DNA of 39,672 bases from Thermincola ferriacetica (GTDB lineage: Bacteria; Bacillota; Thermincolia; Thermincolales; Thermincolaceae): assembly GCF_001263415.1 (NCBI RefSeq), contig NZ_LGTE01000026.1:1-39672 (forward strand), in the 5' to 3' direction. The notes beneath the pieces are model-generated. The model was not told where the DNA came from. It saw nothing but the letters and a program-made list of their open reading frames with translations, and searched no databases. The position numbers and the translations under genes were made by a program. How positions within the stretch are numbered: the first letter of the stretch is position 1; each line of letters begins with the position of its first letter. This document shows, in pieces, positions 4,306 to 33,311 of the stretch.

Positions 4306-4498
4306 CAACAACACCTCCTTCCAAAGCTTGTATCATATCTTTTTTCTTAGCTTTTGGAAAAGCCCCAGAAAATATTAGTGGGGTAATTTGCTAGAGAAGG
4401 ATTAGTTTTTGAACGTAAAAGTTTTCTTTTTCCAGGGTAAAATAACTTCATATGTTTATATTGATGGCAATAAACTGTTACATTAGGAGGTATTGATT
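4306..4498. other. intergenic region between divergent genes
   Basis: AT-rich spacer between the minus-strand short gene and the plus-strand aldo/keto reductase. It holds the short gene's ribosome-binding site at 4312-4320, a small palindrome GCTTTTGGAAAAGC near 4351, and the TAGGAGG of the reductase at 4485-4490. I see no confident sigma-A promoter on either strand. Confidence 0.5.
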
Positions 4499-5506
4499 GT
4501 GGAAAAAAGAACTCTTGGCAGAACCGGCTTAAAGGTATCGGTAATTGGACTGGGGGGGATTCCCATCCAACGGGTTGCCGGGGAAGAAGCGACAGCGATA
4601 CTGAAAACCGCATTGGAAAAAGGCATTAATTTTTTTGATACTGCCAGGGCGTACACCGATAGTGAAGTAAAGTTCGGTGTCGGTTTTCGGGGCACCAAAA
4701 GACCCATCATCGCTACTAAGTCTATGGCCAGAGACAAAGAGACCATGGCCAGGGATATTGAACTGAGCTTGAAAAATTTAGGTGTCGGTACCATTGACCT
4801 GTACCAGTTACATAATGTTAAGGACAGGGAAACTCTGCAAAAGGTCCAGGGGCCTGATGGGGCGCTGGCCGCTTTAAAAGAAGCCAGGGCCCGGGGCGAG
4901 ATCAATTACATTGGGATTACCGGGCACATTCCGGAAATCCTGGTGGAAGCACTGAAAACAGGGGAATTCGATACAGTCCAGTTCCCATATAACCCTGTAG
5001 AAAGGGAAGCGGAAAAAGCCCTCATCCCCCTTGCCCTGGAAATGAATATTGGGATGATTGCCATGAAACCCTTGGCCGGCGGGGCTTTTAAAAACGCGGC
5101 CCTGGCCATTAAGTTTCTTCTAAATTCGCCTGTTTCGACCATTATACCAGGCGTGGACAAACTGGATCAGGTGGCCGAAAATGCTGCCCTTGGACAGCAA
5201 ATATTACCTTTGACGGAGGAAGAGCAGGAAACCTTAAACCGGGAAGTGCGGCAATTGGGAGAGCGTTTTTGCCGGCGCTGCGAATACTGCCAACCGTGCC
5301 CCCAGGGCATTGATATTCCCATGATTTTTCTCCTGGAGGGTTACTGGACCAGATACGGACTGCAGGATTGGGCTGTAGACAGATACAGACCGTTGGCCAA
5401 AAAGGCTTCCGATTGTGTCGAATGTGGCCTTTGTGAAGAGAAGTGCCCCTACAACCTGCCGATAAGGGAAATGCTAAAGGAATCCAGGAGCCACCTGGAG
5501 GGTTGA
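4499..5506 (+). CDS. aldo/keto reductase with C-terminal 4Fe-4S domain
   Basis: A 335-residue fusion typical of anaerobes. Residues 1 to about 265 form the aldo/keto reductase TIM barrel: RTLGRTGLKVSVIGLGG at the start, the FFDTARAYTDSE segment carrying the catalytic Asp and Tyr, a Lys in IIATKS and HNV in the substrate region. The C-terminus adds two cysteine runs, CRRCEYCQPCP near 261 and CVECGLCEEKCP near 309, matching two 4Fe-4S ferredoxin-type motifs. Such proteins probably couple carbonyl reduction to ferredoxin-like electron transfer; the substrate is unknown. GTG 4499 sits 8 bases after GGAGG; TTG 4493 is in frame but only 2 bases from it. The selenoprotein candidate and a ferredoxin lie just downstream. 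Confidence 0.93.
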   Translation: MEKRTLGRTGLKVSVIGLGGIPIQRVAGEEATAILKTALEKGINFFDTARAYTDSEVKFGVGFRGTKRPIIATKSMARDKETMARDIELSLKNLGVGTIDLYQLHNVKDRETLQKVQGPDGALAALKEARARGEINYIGITGHIPEILVEALKTGEFDTVQFPYNPVEREAEKALIPLALEMNIGMIAMKPLAGGAFKNAALAIKFLLNSPVSTIIPGVDKLDQVAENAALGQQILPLTEEEQETLNREVRQLGERFCRRCEYCQPCPQGIDIPMIFLLEGYWTRYGLQDWAVDRYRPLAKKASDCVECGLCEEKCPYNLPIREMLKESRSHLEG

Positions 5507-5599
5507 GACTTGAATTAAGATTAAAATTGAGATGCGGCTTGTTACGTGAATATACGGAACCTTAGCCGGGGCAAAATATAATGAGAGGTGTACACTATT

Positions 5600-5932
5600 A
5601 TGAAAAAAGGCCCCGGATTGCACAATATATGGGTTAATCCCCGGGTCGAAATCCTCTGGGACCAATCCGCTGACGGATTTAACCGCTGTAAGCTAAAAGT
5701 TTACGGGCTCCTGTGCGGAGGCTGAGTGGCCCGCGTCAGGGGCGTCCTGGAGGGTATGCCCGAAACTGAGCAAGTGGAGTTTATCCCCGAAGAAGAGTCA
5801 TTCGTGGTTAAATATGGCGGCAAGCGGCTACTTGGTCCGGAATTCTCCAGACGTGTCATGTCAGCAGTTATCATGCCGGGCGCCAGAAAGTTGCTGCACG
5901 ATATTGGGAAAACCATGCACAGGAATAATTAA
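5600..5932 (+). CDS. candidate selenoprotein, heavy-metal-associated-like domain with CGGU
   Basis: The frame from ATG 5600 (AGAGGTG upstream) runs 41 codons to TGA at 5723-5725, then continues for 68 codons to TAA at 5930. The TGA falls where a second Cys would complete a C-G-G-C metal/thiol motif: VYGLLCGG, then TGA, then VARVRGVLEGM. Sequence on both sides reads as one domain: a beta strand with the motif, a helix, then a strand (EQVEFIPEEESFVVKY), as in HMA/MerP-like domains. A stem-loop directly after the TGA fits a bacterial SECIS (see 5726-5755). Read through, the product is 110 residues with selenocysteine at 42. The alternative is a restart at GTG 5726 or a decayed gene. A metal- or redox-active role is inference. 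Confidence 0.68.
5726..5755 (+). promoter_or_regulatory. SECIS-like stem-loop after in-frame TGA
   Basis: TCAGG (5736-5740) pairs with CCTGG (5746-5750, outer pair a wobble) around a five-base loop GGCGT that begins with two G residues. CCC (5730-5732) pairs with GGG (5752-5754), with G5729-T5755 outside, and the two stems are separated by an asymmetric internal loop. The apical loop begins 16 bases after the TGA. Bacterial SECIS elements need a hairpin at about this distance with a G early in the loop. I folded it by eye only. Confidence 0.55.
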
Positions 5933-6004: not shown

Positions 6005-6193
6005 TTGAAGGTAAAAGTATACGAAGACCTTTGCGTCAGTTGCGGACAGTGCATCAGTATCTGCCCCGATGTATTTGAATGGGGTGATGACGACAAGGCA
6101 GTTGCCAAAATAGAGGAAGTACCTGCCGACCAAGAATCTTTGGCTCACGAGGCAGTAGAGGGTTGCCCGACGGCAGCAATTAAGGAAGAATAA
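6005..6193 (+). CDS. monocluster 4Fe-4S ferredoxin
   Basis: A 62-residue low-potential electron carrier. The cysteine pattern is CVSCGQC at residues 10-16, followed by ICP and a distal GCPTAAI Cys near 54, as in single-cluster ferredoxins of Bacillus and Clostridia. It therefore has the three proximal plus one distal ligand, and an additional Cys at 20. It is strongly acidic, as expected. The start is TTG 6005, 6 bases after an AAGGGGGT site; it gives the usual ferredoxin N-terminus KVKVYEDLC. It lies 72 bases after the candidate selenoprotein and on the same strand as the 4Fe-4S aldo/keto reductase, which could be a redox partner; that is inference. Confidence 0.93.
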   Translation: MKVKVYEDLCVSCGQCISICPDVFEWGDDDKAVAKIEEVPADQESLAHEAVEGCPTAAIKEE

Positions 6194-6237
6194 GGTTGTG
6201 AAAGATAATTGAGGCTGTGCTTATCTGCCAGCCTCAT

Positions 6238-6468
6238 TTAATTTTTACAGTGGTGGCAATTGCACCCATGGCCGTGCTCCTTGTTTTTATGCTGTCCTTG
6301 CTGGGCCTGTTTCAGTGCATCCAGAGATGCCTTGACCTGCTGCCGTATGTTCCGCAGGTAGATGTCCCTCAATTTTTTTTGTTCTTCCGCTTCTTCTGCT
6401 GTCAGGCCTTCGTGCTTCTTTTTCCAGGCCAGGTAATTGATCCGTTCAATTAAATCCCTGTCAATCAT
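6238..6468 (-). CDS. DUF896 (YnzC-like) protein with metal-binding tail
   Basis: A 76-residue helical protein. Residues 1 to about 58 match DUF896/YnzC: an initial DLIERINYLAWKKK helix, then GLTAEEAEEQKKLRDIYL and the IRQQVKASLDAL helix. DUF896 proteins are small cytoplasmic Firmicute proteins; B. subtilis YnzA and YneA-operon YnzC are linked to the SOS response. Here the tail is HGHGCNCHHCKN, a His/Cys cluster not needed for the domain and suited to binding a metal. A CAGGAGGGC ribosome-binding site precedes ATG 6468. It is a single gene opposite in strand to its neighbours. Confidence 0.92.
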   Translation of the reverse strand: MIDRDLIERINYLAWKKKHEGLTAEEAEEQKKLRDIYLRNIRQQVKASLDALKQAQQGQHKNKEHGHGCNCHHCKN

Positions 6469-6757
6469 GGCGCCCTCCTGACAATTATTGGTTTAATCAG
6501 AATTTGAAACCATTTTACCACAAATAAAACAAAATTCAAAATGCAATTATAATTAAAGAAATTGCTCAACCTTCTACCGATAGCCAGCGCCGATGTTCAA
6601 AAAATGTCGTAAAATGTCATACGAAATATAACATTCCATAGCAGGAATTAATTGTTAACATGAGAAAAAATATTAAACGTATCTATTATCATTATATACT
6701 GATCCGAAGGTATATTTTAAAATTGCCGGATACTATTAAAACATGACAGGAGAGACT
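6469..6757. other. AT-rich intergenic region with a possible promoter
   Basis: This spacer is noticeably AT-rich. It contains a near-repeat AAAATGTCGTAAAATGTCATA near 6598 and a possible sigma-A promoter, TTAAAC (6673-6678), 16-base spacer, TATACT (6695-6700), placed about 60 bases before the lipoprotein start. The -35 is a weak match. No gene is seen. Confidence 0.4.
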
Positions 6758-7216
6758 ATGAAAAAAACAGCGATTTTAGGGCTTATATTTTTGCTTCTTA
6801 TCAGTGGGTGCATTGGTACCAATTCTTCCATTGAACAGTACAATAAACAGTATAAAAATGACGATGAACAATGCAAAAGGGCAATCACTGATTATTTCCA
6901 AGCAGTCAAAACTCATGATTTAGACAGGCTAAAGAGCTTATATTCAACTGAGAGACGTAAAATGGCTCAAAATGCATCGTTGGGAGAAGATGAATATGAA
7001 TTTATCAACATATCACAAATAGTACCGGATAAATCCGTGGTATATGAATACATGACCTTTGGTAGAGGCAAGAATAAAAAAGAAGAAGATATAAAGGGTT
7101 ACAAAGTTGATTTTGAGTTTAAATTAAAGAACAAGGCTAAAGTTGTGCAAGATCATTTTAAATTTATACTTGTTAAAGAGAGCGGAAATTGGAAAATAGA
7201 CGATTTTGGCCACTAG
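6758..7216 (+). CDS. small lipoprotein of unknown function
   Basis: A 152-residue secreted lipoprotein. The N-terminus MKKTAILGLIFLLLISGC is a lipoprotein signal peptide with Cys 18 as the lipidation site. The mature part has an early helix with a conserved-looking ITDYFQAVKTHDLDRLKSLY segment and a C-terminal strand pattern ending GNWKIDDFGH, which resembles the NTF2-like/DUF4878 folds that many Firmicute lipoproteins carry; I hold that loosely. ATG 6758 is chosen over an in-frame ATG at 6743 because AGGAGA sits 5 bases before it and the signal peptide then begins properly. The gene is AT-richer than its neighbours and is followed by a strong terminator. Confidence 0.88.
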   Translation: MKKTAILGLIFLLLISGCIGTNSSIEQYNKQYKNDDEQCKRAITDYFQAVKTHDLDRLKSLYSTERRKMAQNASLGEDEYEFINISQIVPDKSVVYEYMTFGRGKNKKEEDIKGYKVDFEFKLKNKAKVVQDHFKFILVKESGNWKIDDFGH

Positions 7217-7249
7217 TTTTTTCTTCAATGTCAATATGAGTGTGGTAGG

Positions 7250-7294
7250 AAAGACACCCTGTGCAAAATACCTTGCAGTGGGGTCTTTTTTTTT
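7250..7294 (+). terminator. rho-independent terminator after lipoprotein gene
   Basis: AAAGAC-A-CCC-TG-TGCAA pairs with TTGCA-GTG-GGG-GTCTTT and runs into nine T residues. It lies 34 bases after the lipoprotein stop and isolates that gene from the next. Confidence 0.85.
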
Positions 7295-7377
7295 AGGGGA
7301 AGTTACCCCAAATATTCTTGACAGCATGTCTTTTTTCCTGTTGTTGGCCCATTTGGTACAAATTTTGGTGCAAATTA

Positions 7378-7386
7378 TGTTATAAT
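7378..7386 (+). promoter_or_regulatory. extended -10 promoter
   Basis: TGTTATAAT is a perfect extended -10 (TG, one base, TATAAT), about 33 bases before the TTG start of the membrane protein at 7419. No good -35 is present, which is usual for extended -10 promoters. Confidence 0.6.
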
Positions 7387-7418
7387 AAGCATAAATATTT
7401 TGGGCAGGTGAAGGAATC

Positions 7419-7715
7419 TTGCTGTGGAAGCGCCCCATTCATCCAACTGTAATTACGGTTGTTTCTTTACCGGCTTTTCTGTTGGGCGGTTTACTGGCGG
7501 GCATCAACTGGATCAATCTCGGCCAGCGGGAACGGGGAATCAATACAATGAAATACAGTTTGCTGGGTACAGTATTTATATTGCTGGTCATTCTGTCCAT
7601 ACCCAGGGACGTGGCTTTAAAGTTCTGGTCTGTGGGGGTTGGCATTAATCTGGGGGTAGGCATGGCCTTACGAAAACTGCAGTTGCCTGCTTACGAAGCC
7701 TGGAAATTCAGATAA
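7419..7715 (+). CDS. small membrane protein
   Basis: A 98-residue protein with three hydrophobic helices, at about residues 12-31, 44-61 and 69-83, separated by short charged loops (NLGQRERGINTMKYS). I do not recognise the family. The TTG start follows AAGGA by 4 bases and lies just downstream of an extended -10 promoter. The next gene begins 22 bases after the stop, so both are probably one transcript. A role in the membrane is all that can be said. Confidence 0.75.
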   Translation: MLWKRPIHPTVITVVSLPAFLLGGLLAGINWINLGQRERGINTMKYSLLGTVFILLVILSIPRDVALKFWSVGVGINLGVGMALRKLQLPAYEAWKFR

Positions 7716-9059: not shown

Positions 9060-10547
9060 ATGACTGATCATGAGTCCCTGAAAATTTTGTTTGTTTCTTC
9101 GGAAGTTGCTCCCTATGCGAAAACCGGCGGCTTGGCCGATGTGGCAGGGTCTTTGCCCAGGGCGCTGGCCCAAATGGGCCATGATGTCCGCATAGCCATG
9201 CCAAGATACAAGGTTATTAAAAGCAGTATGGAAACTTTGACGGACTTTCCCGTTTTGATAAGGGGACGCAAAGAGACTGCTATCGTACGCAGGACTTTTA
9301 TGAATGTGGGGGAGGCAACCCTAGGCCGACAGTTGCCGGTGTACTTTATAGACAATTATCATTACTTTGACCGCCAACATCTTTACATGTATGCCGACGA
9401 AGCTGACCGGTTCGGGTTTTTCTGCCGGGCGGTCCTGGCCATGCTGCCGGCAATTGGTTTTCAGCCTGATATTATTCACTGCAACGACTGGCAGACAGGG
9501 CCTGTGTGTGTATTATTAACAGAATTGGCAGCCCAAAATCCCTTTTATAAAGGGATAGCTACTCTTATGACCATACATAACCTGCATTACCAGGGTAATT
9601 TTCCCCGGGATGCTTTGGATGTGTTGGGACTGCCGGAGTATTATTATCATCATGAACGGTTGGAATTCTACGGTAGTATAAGTTTTATCAAAGCCGGACT
9701 AGTATATGCCGATTTGCTCAATGCCGTCAGCAAAACCTATGCCCGGGAGATTCAGACGCCGGAATACGGTGAAGGCATGGAAGGAATTCTGCGGAAGCGA
9801 GCACAGGATTTATATGGAATAATTAACGGTATTGACTACAATGAGTATGACCCCGAAAAGGACCCTTTTATCACCGCTCGTTACCGTTCGGGAAACCTGG
9901 AAGCCAAGAAGGAAAATAAGACCGCGGTGCAGAATATACTACGCTTACCGAAAGTGGATTTCCCGGTAATCGGCTTGGTATCCCGGCTTGTGGACCAGAA
10001 GGGGCTTGAACTGATTGCAGAAGTTTTTGACCGGTTGATGACTCAAAATATACAGTTAATAGTATTAGGTTCAGGTGACAGGAAATACGAGGATTTCTTC
10101 CAGGCTATGGCCGGGAAATACCCCGAGAAAGTAGGGGTGTTCATAGGATTCAACGAAGCTTTGGCCAAACAAATATATGCCGGCAGCGACATGTTCCTGA
10201 TGCCTTCCCGTTTTGAACCCTGCGGATTGGGCCAGTTGATCGCCTTAAGGTATGGTACCGTTCCCATTGTCAGGGCTACAGGCGGGCTGGCCGATACTGT
10301 CACCGATTACGATCCGCACACGGGCGCCGGTAACGGTTTTGTTTTTCAAGCCTATAACGCAGAGGAAATGTATGCCGCTATTTTACGCGCTTTGGATCTG
10401 TATAATTCAGACCGAGGTAGCTGGAAGAGCCTTGTGCGAAAAGCCCTCGACAGCGATTTCTCATGGAATAAATCTGCCCGGGAATACGTTGACCTTTACC
10501 GTCTCTGCATAAAGAAACATAGGATTGGGTATTCGGGTGGCATCTAA
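9060..10547 (+). CDS. glgA: glycogen synthase (ADP-glucose), copy 1
   Basis: A 495-residue GT5 glycosyltransferase of GT-B fold that extends alpha-1,4-glucan chains from ADP-glucose. The N-terminal ADP-glucose motif is AKTGGLADVAGSLP (residues about 20-33); IIHCNDWQTG and TIHNLHYQG are the usual acceptor-domain motifs; the C-terminal catalytic segment reads PSRFEPCGLGQLIALRYG followed by ATGGLADTV. Length is slightly above the E. coli enzyme. GGAGGT precedes the ATG by 5 bases. A second, clearly related copy lies at 15739. No glgB, glgC or glgP is seen nearby, so the rest of the glycogen pathway must be elsewhere. Confidence 0.97.
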   Translation: MTDHESLKILFVSSEVAPYAKTGGLADVAGSLPRALAQMGHDVRIAMPRYKVIKSSMETLTDFPVLIRGRKETAIVRRTFMNVGEATLGRQLPVYFIDNYHYFDRQHLYMYADEADRFGFFCRAVLAMLPAIGFQPDIIHCNDWQTGPVCVLLTELAAQNPFYKGIATLMTIHNLHYQGNFPRDALDVLGLPEYYYHHERLEFYGSISFIKAGLVYADLLNAVSKTYAREIQTPEYGEGMEGILRKRAQDLYGIINGIDYNEYDPEKDPFITARYRSGNLEAKKENKTAVQNILRLPKVDFPVIGLVSRLVDQKGLELIAEVFDRLMTQNIQLIVLGSGDRKYEDFFQAMAGKYPEKVGVFIGFNEALAKQIYAGSDMFLMPSRFEPCGLGQLIALRYGTVPIVRATGGLADTVTDYDPHTGAGNGFVFQAYNAEEMYAAILRALDLYNSDRGSWKSLVRKALDSDFSWNKSAREYVDLYRLCIKKHRIGYSGGI

Positions 10548-15514: not shown

Positions 15515-15738
15515 AATTTCCTAAAATTAAAACAATAACTTTTTTGTAAAGTTCACATGTGGTGTATTTATACTAATCGTAGGAAAGCTTTCTTTTATGG
15601 GGGTTTTCCAAAAAATAGACAAATAAAATGGCGTTTTCCGTTACAACCTAAGAATAAGTTGGCAAGACCGGTATTTGAAGTTAAGAGGGTTAAGAGGTTT
15701 GTTTCAATTATTTGCTGAAAAGAGGGAGGCAATTTACT
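15515..15738. other. remainder of the SLH/glgA2 divergent intergenic region
   Basis: AT-rich sequence with no gene. TTGTAAAG (about 15544) could be part of a promoter for the plus-strand glgA, but I cannot set a convincing -10. The GGGAGG of glgA copy 2 is at 15724-15729. Confidence 0.35.
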
Positions 15739-17217
15739 ATGTTAGATAAAAACCTGAAAGTTCTGTATGTGGCGGCGGAGGTCGTTCCTTTTGCCAAAAC
15801 CGGAGGCCTGGCCGATGTGGCCGGTTCTTTACCGAAGGCTTTGACGGCACTGGGAAACGATGTGCGTATTGTGCTCCCCAGATATAAGGGAATTGACTGG
15901 CGCCGAACGGTGACTGATTTTCCTGTGGAGATGGCCGGGCAAAAGCAAACCTGCATTATCAGGGAAGGTTCAATTGAGGCGATAGTACCGGGTGGAACGA
16001 AGACGGTGCCTGTTTATTTTGTGGATAACTACCATTACTTTGACCGGTACGGGATTTATGGTTATTGGGATGAGGCGGAGAGGTATATCTTTTTCTGTAA
16101 GGCGGTCCTGGAGATGTTGCCATATATTGGTTGGCAGCCGCATATAATTCACTGCAATGACTGGCACACAGGTCCCATTCCTTTATTGCTGAAAACAAAA
16201 TATCAAAACCGGGATATTTATAAGCGGATAGCCACCTTGTTTACTGTCCATAACCTGCTGTACCAGGGTAACCATGGCAAAGATGTGCTGCGCCTCCTTG
16301 GCCTGGGCGAAGAATATTTTCACCCCGACCGGCTGGAATTTTACGGAAAGGTCAGTTTTATGAAGGCGGGCCTGGTGTATGCAGATATATTAAATACTGT
16401 TAGTTCAAAATACGCGCGTGAAATTCAAACGCCTCAATACGGTGAAGGGATGGATGGATTATTGCGAAAAAGGGCTCATGACCTTTACGGGATCGTAAAC
16501 GGGATCAACTTCCACGAGTTTAATCCCAAAACGGACCCGCGTATTTTCCGTAATTACAGTTCCGAGACCTTTGCGGAGAAGAGTGAAAATAAATATGCGC
16601 TGCAAAAGGAAATGGGCTTGCCTGTGGAGAGCGTGCCGTTGATAGGGTTGGTTTCACGTCTGGTCGATCATAAAGGACTGGATCTGCTTGCGGAAATATT
16701 GGATGAACTCATGAAAGAACGGGTGCAGTTGGTTATATTAGGTACCGGAGAACCGTATTACGAGCGGCTGTTCACCGGTTATAAAAATAAGTACCCCAAC
16801 AAGATGGCGGTGCATATTGGGTTTAACAGTATTTTGGCGCAAAGGATATATGCCGGTGCAGATATGTTCTTGATGCCTTCAAAACTTGAACCGTGCGGGC
16901 TTGGTCAATTGATAGCGCTGCGCTACGGAGCTGTGCCGATAGTCAGGGCTACAGGCGGTTTGGCCGATACCATTGTTGATTACGATCCTTTCACCGGCAT
17001 GGGAAACGGTTTTAGTTTTGAACCCTATTCGGCCCAAATGCTTTATCATACATTGCAAAGGGCCATCAAACTCTTTTACGACGAACCCGATAAATGGGAA
17101 AAACTGGCCCGCACAGGTATGGAACAGGATTTCTCCTGGAACCGGTCGGCGGCTGAGTACCTGGAACTTTATGATAAGGCCCTGGCCAGGACAACCAATC
17201 TAATTCAGACTGCATAA
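15739..17217 (+). CDS. glgA: glycogen synthase (ADP-glucose), copy 2
   Basis: A 492-residue GT5 enzyme, a close paralogue of the gene at 9060. It shares the AKTGGLADVAGSLPKAL motif, IIHCNDWHTG, VHNLLYQG, EIQTPQYGEGMDGLLRKRA and the catalytic region PSKLEPCGLGQLIALRYG. Divergence lies mainly in the loops. The start ATG 15739 is chosen because GAGGGAGG lies 9 bases before it; an in-frame TTG upstream at 15712 has no such site. Two copies 5 kb apart on the same strand are unusual; one may act in storage glycogen and the other in a surface or starch-like glucan, but that is speculation. No other glucan genes are near. Confidence 0.96.
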   Translation: MLDKNLKVLYVAAEVVPFAKTGGLADVAGSLPKALTALGNDVRIVLPRYKGIDWRRTVTDFPVEMAGQKQTCIIREGSIEAIVPGGTKTVPVYFVDNYHYFDRYGIYGYWDEAERYIFFCKAVLEMLPYIGWQPHIIHCNDWHTGPIPLLLKTKYQNRDIYKRIATLFTVHNLLYQGNHGKDVLRLLGLGEEYFHPDRLEFYGKVSFMKAGLVYADILNTVSSKYAREIQTPQYGEGMDGLLRKRAHDLYGIVNGINFHEFNPKTDPRIFRNYSSETFAEKSENKYALQKEMGLPVESVPLIGLVSRLVDHKGLDLLAEILDELMKERVQLVILGTGEPYYERLFTGYKNKYPNKMAVHIGFNSILAQRIYAGADMFLMPSKLEPCGLGQLIALRYGAVPIVRATGGLADTIVDYDPFTGMGNGFSFEPYSAQMLYHTLQRAIKLFYDEPDKWEKLARTGMEQDFSWNRSAAEYLELYDKALARTTNLIQTA

Positions 17218-31289: not shown

Positions 31290-32816
31290 ATGGAAGACGG
31301 TAGCCTGGTCATATTATCCGGCGGTCAAAACACCCGCATGGGACAGAACAAGGCCTTTTTAAGGGTCCGGGATGTCCCCATTATAGAAAAAATCATTGGC
31401 GAACTGGGGACGGTATTTAAAGAAATCATTATTGTAACTAACGCTCCCCATGCTTATAAAGGTTTGCAAAATATTCGCATAGTCACCGATATTTATCCTG
31501 GCAAAGGGCCCTTGAGTGGTATCCATGCCGGGTTGACCCATGCATCCCTGGACAGAAGTTTAATAGTGGCCTGTGATATGCCTTTCGTAGCCAGAAAAAC
31601 GGCACAGCGGCTGTTTCGCCAAAGCCGCGGTTGGGATGTTACCGTTCCGGTTATAGAGGGGAAATACCAACCTCTGTTTGCTATTTATGCTAAAAGCTGT
31701 CTAAAACCCATTGAGCAGCAGTTGCAGGCGGGGATATATAAAATTACGTCCTTTTACAGCCAGGTTCGGGTAAGAGAAATAGATTACAGTGAACTGAATA
31801 ACGGAATTGCGCCGGAAAAGTTTTTTTACAACGTAAATACCCCCGCGGAACTGGAAGAAGCCAGAAAAATGGCAACAGAAATCTGTGGAGAAGACAATAT
31901 TGGGGAAGACAACATTCATGAAGAAAATACTCAGGAAGATAATTCCCAGGAAAATAATTCTCTGGAAGACAATCAGGAAAATAATACTCCGGAAGACAAA
32001 ATTCAGGAGGATAATGCTCAGCGAAGAAGTGCTCGGCAGGATAAGAAATACCTTCAGGCTTACCGCTGGAAAGCCGGGATCGTAGAGCTAATAGATGACC
32101 CGCTGGCAGCAGAAAGTCCTCTGACTGTTTTTCTGAACGACCAGGAAATTGTGACCCTTTTATGCTCACCGGTAAACCAGGACGAACTGGCTGTGGGGTT
32201 CCTTGTCTCTGAAGGGCTGATAAAAGGGGATGCCGGAGAAATCAGGGTAAGGGTTGACTGTGAGCGGGGAATGGCCTGGGTAACAGCCGATAAGGTCAGT
32301 ATTATTGCTGAGCAGACTTTTTTGAAACGATATATCACAACGGGCTGCGGTAAGGGTACCACTTTTTATAATGTTATGGACGCCAAATGCCGGCCGGTGA
32401 CGGGTCAGATCACAGTTGCGGCTGAAAAGATTATTGAATTGATGACCCGGACCCAGCAGGTTTCCCGCCTGTTCAAGGATACGGGAGGTGTGCACCTGGC
32501 AGCACTCTGTTCCGTGGACAGGATGATTTTATACCGGGAAGATATAGGACGCCATAATGCCCTGGATAAGATTGTGGGCAGGTGTTACATGGACAATATA
32601 TCTGTGGATGATAAAATTCTTTTCACAACGGGTAGGCTTTCTTCGGAAATTCTTCTCAAAGTGGCTAAATTGGGAGCGCCTATCCTGGTTTCCAGGTCAG
32701 CGCCGACCGAATTGGCGGTAAAACTGGCGAGACAACTGGGGGTAACCCTCATCGGTTTTGCCAGGGGCGGGCGCTTTAACCTTTATGCCAATGAATACCG
32801 GGTCCTGGGGGGTTGA
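31290..32816 (+). CDS. MobA-FdhD fusion protein
   Basis: A 508-residue two-enzyme fusion. Residues 1 to about 195 are MobA, molybdenum cofactor guanylyltransferase: ILSGGQNTRMGQNKAFL is the GTP/Mg loop, with DIYPGKGPLSGIHAGL and VACDMPFV following. Residues 200-243 are a degenerate E-D-N-rich linker, each 15 bp of DNA repeating (see 31887-32018). Residues about 258-508 are FdhD, the sulfurtransferase that delivers sulfur to the bis-MGD cofactor of formate dehydrogenase: PLTVFLNDQEIVTLLCSP, ITTGCGKGTTF and DIGRHNALDKIVG. The single Cys in GCGKG replaces the CxxC of E. coli FdhD. It would join guanylation and sulfuration of the molybdenum cofactor. mobB follows by 3 bases. Confidence 0.93.
   Translation: MEDGSLVILSGGQNTRMGQNKAFLRVRDVPIIEKIIGELGTVFKEIIIVTNAPHAYKGLQNIRIVTDIYPGKGPLSGIHAGLTHASLDRSLIVACDMPFVARKTAQRLFRQSRGWDVTVPVIEGKYQPLFAIYAKSCLKPIEQQLQAGIYKITSFYSQVRVREIDYSELNNGIAPEKFFYNVNTPAELEEARKMATEICGEDNIGEDNIHEENTQEDNSQENNSLEDNQENNTPEDKIQEDNAQRRSARQDKKYLQAYRWKAGIVELIDDPLAAESPLTVFLNDQEIVTLLCSPVNQDELAVGFLVSEGLIKGDAGEIRVRVDCERGMAWVTADKVSIIAEQTFLKRYITTGCGKGTTFYNVMDAKCRPVTGQITVAAEKIIELMTRTQQVSRLFKDTGGVHLAALCSVDRMILYREDIGRHNALDKIVGRCYMDNISVDDKILFTTGRLSSEILLKVAKLGAPILVSRSAPTELAVKLARQLGVTLIGFARGGRFNLYANEYRVLGG
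31887..32018 (+). repeat. in-frame 15-bp minisatellite coding the acidic linker
   Basis: Nine degenerate units based on CAGGAAGATAATNCT follow one another (one unit is 12 bp), each coding E-D-N or E-N-N-x. They encode the linker of MobA-FdhD and keep the frame, as multiples of 3 should. The array could vary in length between strains. Confidence 0.9.
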
Positions 32817-32819
32817 CCA

Positions 32820-33311
32820 GTGATTCCTTTTGTAGGGATTGTAGGGTTCTCCAATACGGGCAAGACTACATTAATGGAAAAACTTATCCGGGAATTGACC
32901 GTCAGGGGTTACCGGGTGGCAGCCATTAAGCACCATCACCGGGATATGGAATTTGACCGGCCGGGCAAGGATACATGGCGGCACGCCCGGGCTGGGGCGG
33001 CAACAGTTATGCTGGTTTCTCCATATCAAATGGTAAAAATTTCAAAAAGTGAGCAAAAAATAGGCCTGCAAAAGGCGCTGCAGGAGATTACCGATGCTGA
33101 TATAATTTTAGTTGAGGGATTTAAAAAAGAAAAGATGCCCAAAATCGAAGTGTTTCGCGGTTCGGTGCATGATGCCCTTATTACGTCCCGGGAGGAATTG
33201 GTGGCCGTCGTGGCTTCCGACAGGGAATTTACCGGCGTGCCCTGTTACGGGCCGGATGATGTTAAAGAATTGGCCGACCTTATAGTAAAAGAGTTTTTGA
33301 AGGAGGGATAG
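32820..33311 (+). CDS. mobB: molybdopterin-guanine dinucleotide biosynthesis adaptor MobB
   Basis: A 163-residue P-loop GTPase that binds GTP and assists MobA. Walker A is GFSNTGKTTLMEKLI near residue 9, the Mg-binding HHH appears in AAIKHHHRDME, and ILVEGFKKEKMPKIEV is the MobB signature. The start is GTG 32820, 3 bases after the fusion stop; the GGGG before it is a weak site, so translation is likely coupled. Length fits stand-alone MobB. It is in the same operon as mobA-fdhD and the Crp-type regulator. Confidence 0.95.
   Translation: MIPFVGIVGFSNTGKTTLMEKLIRELTVRGYRVAAIKHHHRDMEFDRPGKDTWRHARAGAATVMLVSPYQMVKISKSEQKIGLQKALQEITDADIILVEGFKKEKMPKIEVFRGSVHDALITSREELVAVVASDREFTGVPCYGPDDVKELADLIVKEFLKEG

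Follow-up and report, generated by a model that had tools for sequence, protein, structure and literature searches.

An in-frame TGA probably read as selenocysteine in a small HMA-like protein of Thermincola ferriacetica and its relatives

A short open reading frame of Thermincola ferriacetica is interrupted by a TGA at the point where a Cys would complete a CGGC motif, which raises the question of whether this codon ends the gene or is decoded as selenocysteine (Sec). The locus lies within the window, the whole stretch of 39,672 nucleotides of contig NZ_LGTE01000026.1 that was analysed (Table 1). The frame is composed of 41 codons, the TGA, 68 codons and a TAA, with the TGA as its sole interruption; its translation is MKKGPGLHNIWVNPRVEILWDQSADGFNRCKLKVYGLLCGG-U-VARVRGVLEGMPETEQVEFIPEEESFVVKYGGKRLLGPEFSRRVMSAVIMPGARKLLHDIGKTMHRNN followed by the stop, with U as residue 42, and the sequence GAGAGGTG is found 9 bases before the ATG at 5600. 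The claim of an earlier sequence-only reading that one 110-codon frame runs on through the TGA is confirmed by this layout. The gene is considered very probably to encode a 110-residue selenoprotein, with Sec inserted at the TGA, because 18 related genes keep the codon, the hairpin that follows it and the protein on both sides.

Table 1. Features of the probable selenoprotein gene and its immediate neighbours (positions in the window)
Feature	Position	Strand	Details	Basis
Aldo/keto reductase with C-terminal 4Fe-4S domain	4493-5506	+	Upstream neighbour	Conserved synteny
Probable ribosome-binding site	5583-5590	+	GAGAGGTG	Sequence; inferred from spacing only
Probable selenoprotein gene	5600-5932	+	110 codons and TAA; Sec would be codon 42	Sequence; homologue alignment
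HMA (PF00403) match	5693-5815	+	Residues 32-72, spanning the TGA	Pfam; predicted fold
CGGU motif	5714-5725	+	TGC GGA GGC TGA	Sequence; homologue alignment
In-frame TGA, very probably read as selenocysteine	5723-5725	+		TGA in 17/17 protein homologues and two further loci
Bacterial SECIS-like hairpin	5740-5761	+	Loop GGA 5749-5751; bulged U 5755	Covariation; folding
62-residue single-cluster 4Fe-4S ferredoxin	6005-6193	+	Downstream neighbour	

Homologues that align across the TGA do exist, which the sequence-only reading had set as a check; among 149 relative genomes searched with the protein, 16 others have a match across most of its length, each containing one in-frame TGA, and the match in L017 also takes in the TAA that ends the gene. 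When 398 genomes of the phylum were searched with a profile, the same 17 members were recovered, scoring 110-152 bits, and in every one of them a TGA occupies this position. The next matches, at 46 bits or less, are ordinary HMA domains, mostly P-type ATPase-like or short HMA proteins as judged by frame length and nearly all without an internal stop. By profile comparison HMA domains generally carry Cys at the position of the Sec; the homologues with CGGC expected at the outset did not appear, as no Cys-containing orthologue of the family is found among the 398 genomes and every member has the Sec form. The usual evidence from Cys/Sec exchange is absent because of this. An exact DNA pattern, V.GL[LI]C..U V.RV...L, was run over approximately 85,000 species genomes, phyla outside the window's own being covered by this CxxU pattern alone; it returns 12 stretches, comprising nine known contigs, two new members (L077 and L082) and one chance match, Helicobacter L079, which was rejected as a member. 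The contigs recovered include Thermincola MAGs, HGW-Firmicutes-8 and -14, and Clostridiales bacterium PH28_bin88. No second copy is found in the window's own genome, where the remaining matches comprise two short HMA frames and a copper ATPase-like frame of 845 residues that has two HMA domains; a contig scan with the single window protein as query returns no relative. The family occurs in a few lineages of the window's phylum and, within the range searched, in the Sec form only.

The alignment of 17 sequences has 14 invariant columns, seven before the Sec position (P5, N9, P14, V34, G36, L37 and C39) and seven at or after it (U42, R45, V46, L50, Y72, R96 and L99). The CxxU motif takes the forms CGGU, CGLU, CFLU and CDAU among the 17 members; four distant members have CxxxU, written CY[ST][LV]U, which is one residue longer. 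Nei-Gojobori counts indicate purifying selection on both sides of the TGA, with amino-acid-changing differences far fewer than silent ones; for the pair L007/L009, pS is 0.74 and pN 0.08 upstream, and 0.66 and 0.07 downstream. If the TGA were an ordinary stop, the upstream 41 and downstream 68 codons would be separate genes or the remains of a broken one, and the window does have a GTG directly after the TGA (5726) from which an ORF starts; however, a start codon in this place is possible in only 4/17 members, the codon after the TGA being GTT, GTC, GTA or AGT in the other 13. The first start codon lies anywhere from 1 to 53 codons past the TGA, varying by member, and a separate downstream gene from GTG 5726 is rejected for this lack of a consistent start; homologous frames that all begin after the TGA, which would have pointed to such a gene, are not what the members display. 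A single domain also spans the TGA, and 19 sequences all keep the codon, with constraint on either side of it, all of which makes termination at this codon very improbable.

Downstream of the TGA, the window can form a hairpin in which 5740-5745 pairs with 5756-5761 (GGGCGU/AUGCCC) and 5746-5748 with 5752-5754 (CCU/GGG), at -10.9 kcal/mol; the apical loop opens with a G, and the distance from the TGA to this first loop G is 23 bases. Taken by itself, the window sequence gives this hairpin an unremarkable folding energy (z -0.5), so the hairpin claim rests on comparison. An ungapped alignment of 19 sequences (the 17 members with L077 and L082) covers 45 bases counted from the TGA, and a seven-pair helix is shared at fixed distance (columns 20-26/30-36), with 91.7% of pair cells formed against 83.5 +/- 1.4 in shuffles. 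Five of the helix pairs have changed on both sides, which is matched by none of 500 shuffles; likewise no shuffle of the 500 reaches the percentage paired or the covariation score, while two reach the number of further pair types. Every hairpin measure drops when the register is shifted; these shuffle and sliding controls remove the kinship of the 19 sequences only in part. Six of the seven pairs are also predicted independently by RNAalifold, and the window hairpin differs from the shared helix in its bulged U and longer lower stem. The stem-loop noticed in the sequence-only reading, with its G at the loop start and at the right distance for a SECIS, is upheld as a hairpin beyond chance because it covaries across 19 homologues; an Rfam scan of the window gives no match.

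The machinery for Sec insertion is complete in the window's own genome, which contains selB over cut-off, a tRNA-Sec scoring 74.9 bits with a TCA anticodon, selA, and a selD that itself has an in-frame TGA; all of selA, selB, selC and selD, named beforehand as genes to look for, are therefore present, while a tRNA scan of the window finds none. Among the member genomes selA and selD are over cut-off in 16/17, and tRNA-Sec is found at E below 1e-12 in 15/16 homologue genomes; the exception for selA, selD and tRNA-Sec is one and the same 75% complete genome. Co-occurrence of selA with the family (Fisher p 0.016) gives weak support, because selA is common in the phylum (105/149 genomes of relatives). 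Another conceivable explanation is that some tRNA besides tRNA-Sec decodes the TGA, giving Trp for instance, or that the ribosome simply reads through it; no support for such a reading was found, and it is opposed by the complete machinery, by the covarying hairpin at SECIS distance and by the position of the TGA, which stands where the HMA CxxC motif has its second Cys. With selB, tRNA-Sec, selA and selD in place this alternative is rejected as barely credible. On strong comparative evidence, it is proposed that SelB and Sec-tRNA(UCA) would read the TGA as selenocysteine, directed by the hairpin.

When U is read as Cys, the only Pfam match of the protein is HMA (PF00403), which spans the TGA and, at 25.7 bits, exceeds its gathering score of 24.8. 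All 17 members match HMA; the suggestion that both sides of the TGA belong to one HMA-like domain holds by this measure. The AlphaFold2 model from the 17-row alignment has a mean pLDDT of 80.5 and features strands at 15-24, 27-35, 56-62 and 67-72 and helices at 40-51, 79-90 and 95-107. Using VIA-align, residues 26-91 superpose on CopZ, ATP7B, PacS, Ccc2 and MerP with Z of 8.4-8.9 at 1.4-1.9 Å; for CopZ the values are Z 8.9 and 1.9 Å over 65 residues. Foldseek alone gives no E below 0.001, and its top matches, RNA polymerase subunits, are not meaningful at rmsd of approximately 7-8 Å; Cu-ATPase and CopZ/MerP chains are found by sequence search with the family profile. The fold is thus predicted to be HMA-like with an extra N-terminal strand and a C-terminal helix.

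In the window, as in eight genomes with the same gene order, the selenoprotein gene is followed by the ferredoxin. It is preceded by the 4Fe-4S aldo/keto reductase in the window and in 7/8 of these genomes; within the stretch fetched for the eighth (L085) the reductase was not found. In two distant members, fixC- and fixX-like genes are directly upstream in the orientation of the selenoprotein gene (L087 5057-6669 and L098 5207-6855). Four further distant genomes have the gene between two small genes (L093 933-2031; L095, L096 and L097 at approximately 6200-7600): gene A of 101-112 residues with LWEEMGSxTGGLIGRFIG, and gene B of 71-98 residues with HQMGLTFG...GYAMDL. The selenoprotein gene is on the same strand as A and B in L093 and on the opposite strand in L095-L097; neither small gene has a Pfam match in the examples scanned. 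Among the members looked at, no copper or mercury gene is recognised beside the family.

Several other features of these loci were observed. The same-order homologues L083-L086, L088 and L090-L092 (at approximately 6900-7400) have an extra N-terminal stretch of approximately 75-85 residues, IIKEGIKLNQSLALLPLKA...KNTxAKQMVDVAEDFVSIPFVAA, which the window protein does not have and which gives no Pfam match in the one example scanned. A DUF896 protein with a His/Cys-rich tail, HGHGCNCHHCKN, is encoded at 6238-6468 (-) of the window, convergent with the ferredoxin; four of the same-order relatives (L083, L084, L088 and L092) likewise have a DUF896 match in the vicinity of the selenoprotein gene. 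As read from sequence only, the window further contains two glycogen-synthase-like paralogues (9060-10547 and 15712-17217) and a 508-residue ORF at 31290-32816 resembling a MobA-FdhD fusion, followed by a MobB-like ORF at 32820-33311; the MobA-FdhD-like and MobB-like ORFs would fit a genome that makes formate dehydrogenase.

The HMA fold is metal-binding in most characterised members. In the proposed mechanism, the CxxC metal loop would have Sec in place of its second Cys, giving CGGU, and the Cys thiolate and Sec selenolate may together bind a soft metal in the way that MerP and CopZ use their CxxC loop. Binding of a soft metal by the Cys-Sec pair is considered the most likely function, with about an even chance of being correct; against it stand the GLLC or GLIC found in the family for the GMxC of usual copper/mercury sites, the CxxxU spacing of some members, and the want of a recognised copper or mercury neighbour. 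The main rival, which concerns the function and not the Sec assignment, is thiol-selenol redox chemistry, in which a CxxU selenenylsulfide would be reduced by, or donate to, a ferredoxin or FixCX-type carrier and the HMA fold would serve as a scaffold only. Metal binding is favoured by the fold. Redox is favoured by the Leu that replaces the conserved Met, by the CxxxU variants and by neighbours that are electron carriers: the ferredoxin gene is next in the window and the eight same-order relatives, and the gene directly follows fixC-fixX-like genes in two distant members. Known selenoproteins are also mostly redox-active (PMC13188914). Neighbourhood alone does not demonstrate electron transfer, however, and with the metal-binding record of the fold also against it, the redox role is held tentatively, at something short of an even prospect. 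A bolder and rather doubtful proposal is that the family is a Sec-only HMA branch which has moved past metal transport and, in anaerobic bacteria, pairs its selenol with ferredoxin or FixCX-type carriers for redox chemistry, the CxxU/CxxxU site being flexible.

The sequence-only reading knew of no described selenoprotein family that matches. This stands for NCBIfam release 20, in which no model claims any member scanned, and for the table of a 2026 review (PMC13188914), which has no HMA-domain CxxU family under PF00403 and in which the motifs CGGU and CxxxU are absent; searches of openly accessible literature on Thermincola selenoproteins and Sec-CopZ also turn up no description of the family. 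It does not stand for the kind of protein, as Sec-containing HMA-type precedents are known. NF041115 (UxxU_metal_bind), a metal-binding (seleno)protein listed as a putative mercuric reductase with UxxU (PMC13188914), is likewise small and HMA-like, has Sec in its metal motif and matches all 17 members weakly; however, the window protein scores 18 bits and the best member 39.3 against a cut-off of 95, Sec is at the second position only (CxxU/CxxxU, 17/17), and the N- and C-terminal parts are longer here. NF045683 (MerT_CopZ_Se), a MerT/CopZ fusion-like heavy metal transport selenoprotein, shares Sec and an HMA-like domain; its best-scoring member reaches 22.4 bits against a cut-off of 375, and the MerT part that NF045683 has by name is not present in this family. 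A Sec-containing MerP, represented by two sequences and lacking Cys homologues, is entered in Table 2 of the Global Ocean Sampling survey (PMC2398784); it is similar in having Sec in a MerP-type HMA protein, a likeness drawn from the table entry. CopZ, MerP, Atx1 and the P-type ATPase HMA domains (PF00403) resemble the family in the predicted fold of residues 26-91 (Z of approximately 8-9) and the position of the CxxC loop; they lack the family's additional N-terminal strand and C-terminal helix, and where they have the second Cys and the Met that precedes the loop, the family has Sec and Leu. The CC/Se motif family NF041239 from Moorella, to which no function is assigned, has the CxxU motif in common, but scanning against NCBIfam at E up to 10 gives no match to it. 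With scores far below the cut-offs, assignment of the family to NF041115, NF045683 or the CopZ/MerP equivalogs is rejected. The family appears to be new and its kind already known, because Sec-containing HMA-type proteins have been described in the UxxU family, MerT/CopZ and MerP.

Standard annotation would cut the gene at 5600-5932 short at the UGA or overlook it. The finding would add a well-supported and apparently unlisted family to the prokaryotic selenoproteome. Two of its traits are unusual: every member recovered by the searches has Sec, and the Cys-Sec spacing varies where the HMA metal loop is normally CxxC; what Sec does in an HMA fold, metal binding or redox, can therefore be tested directly in this family.
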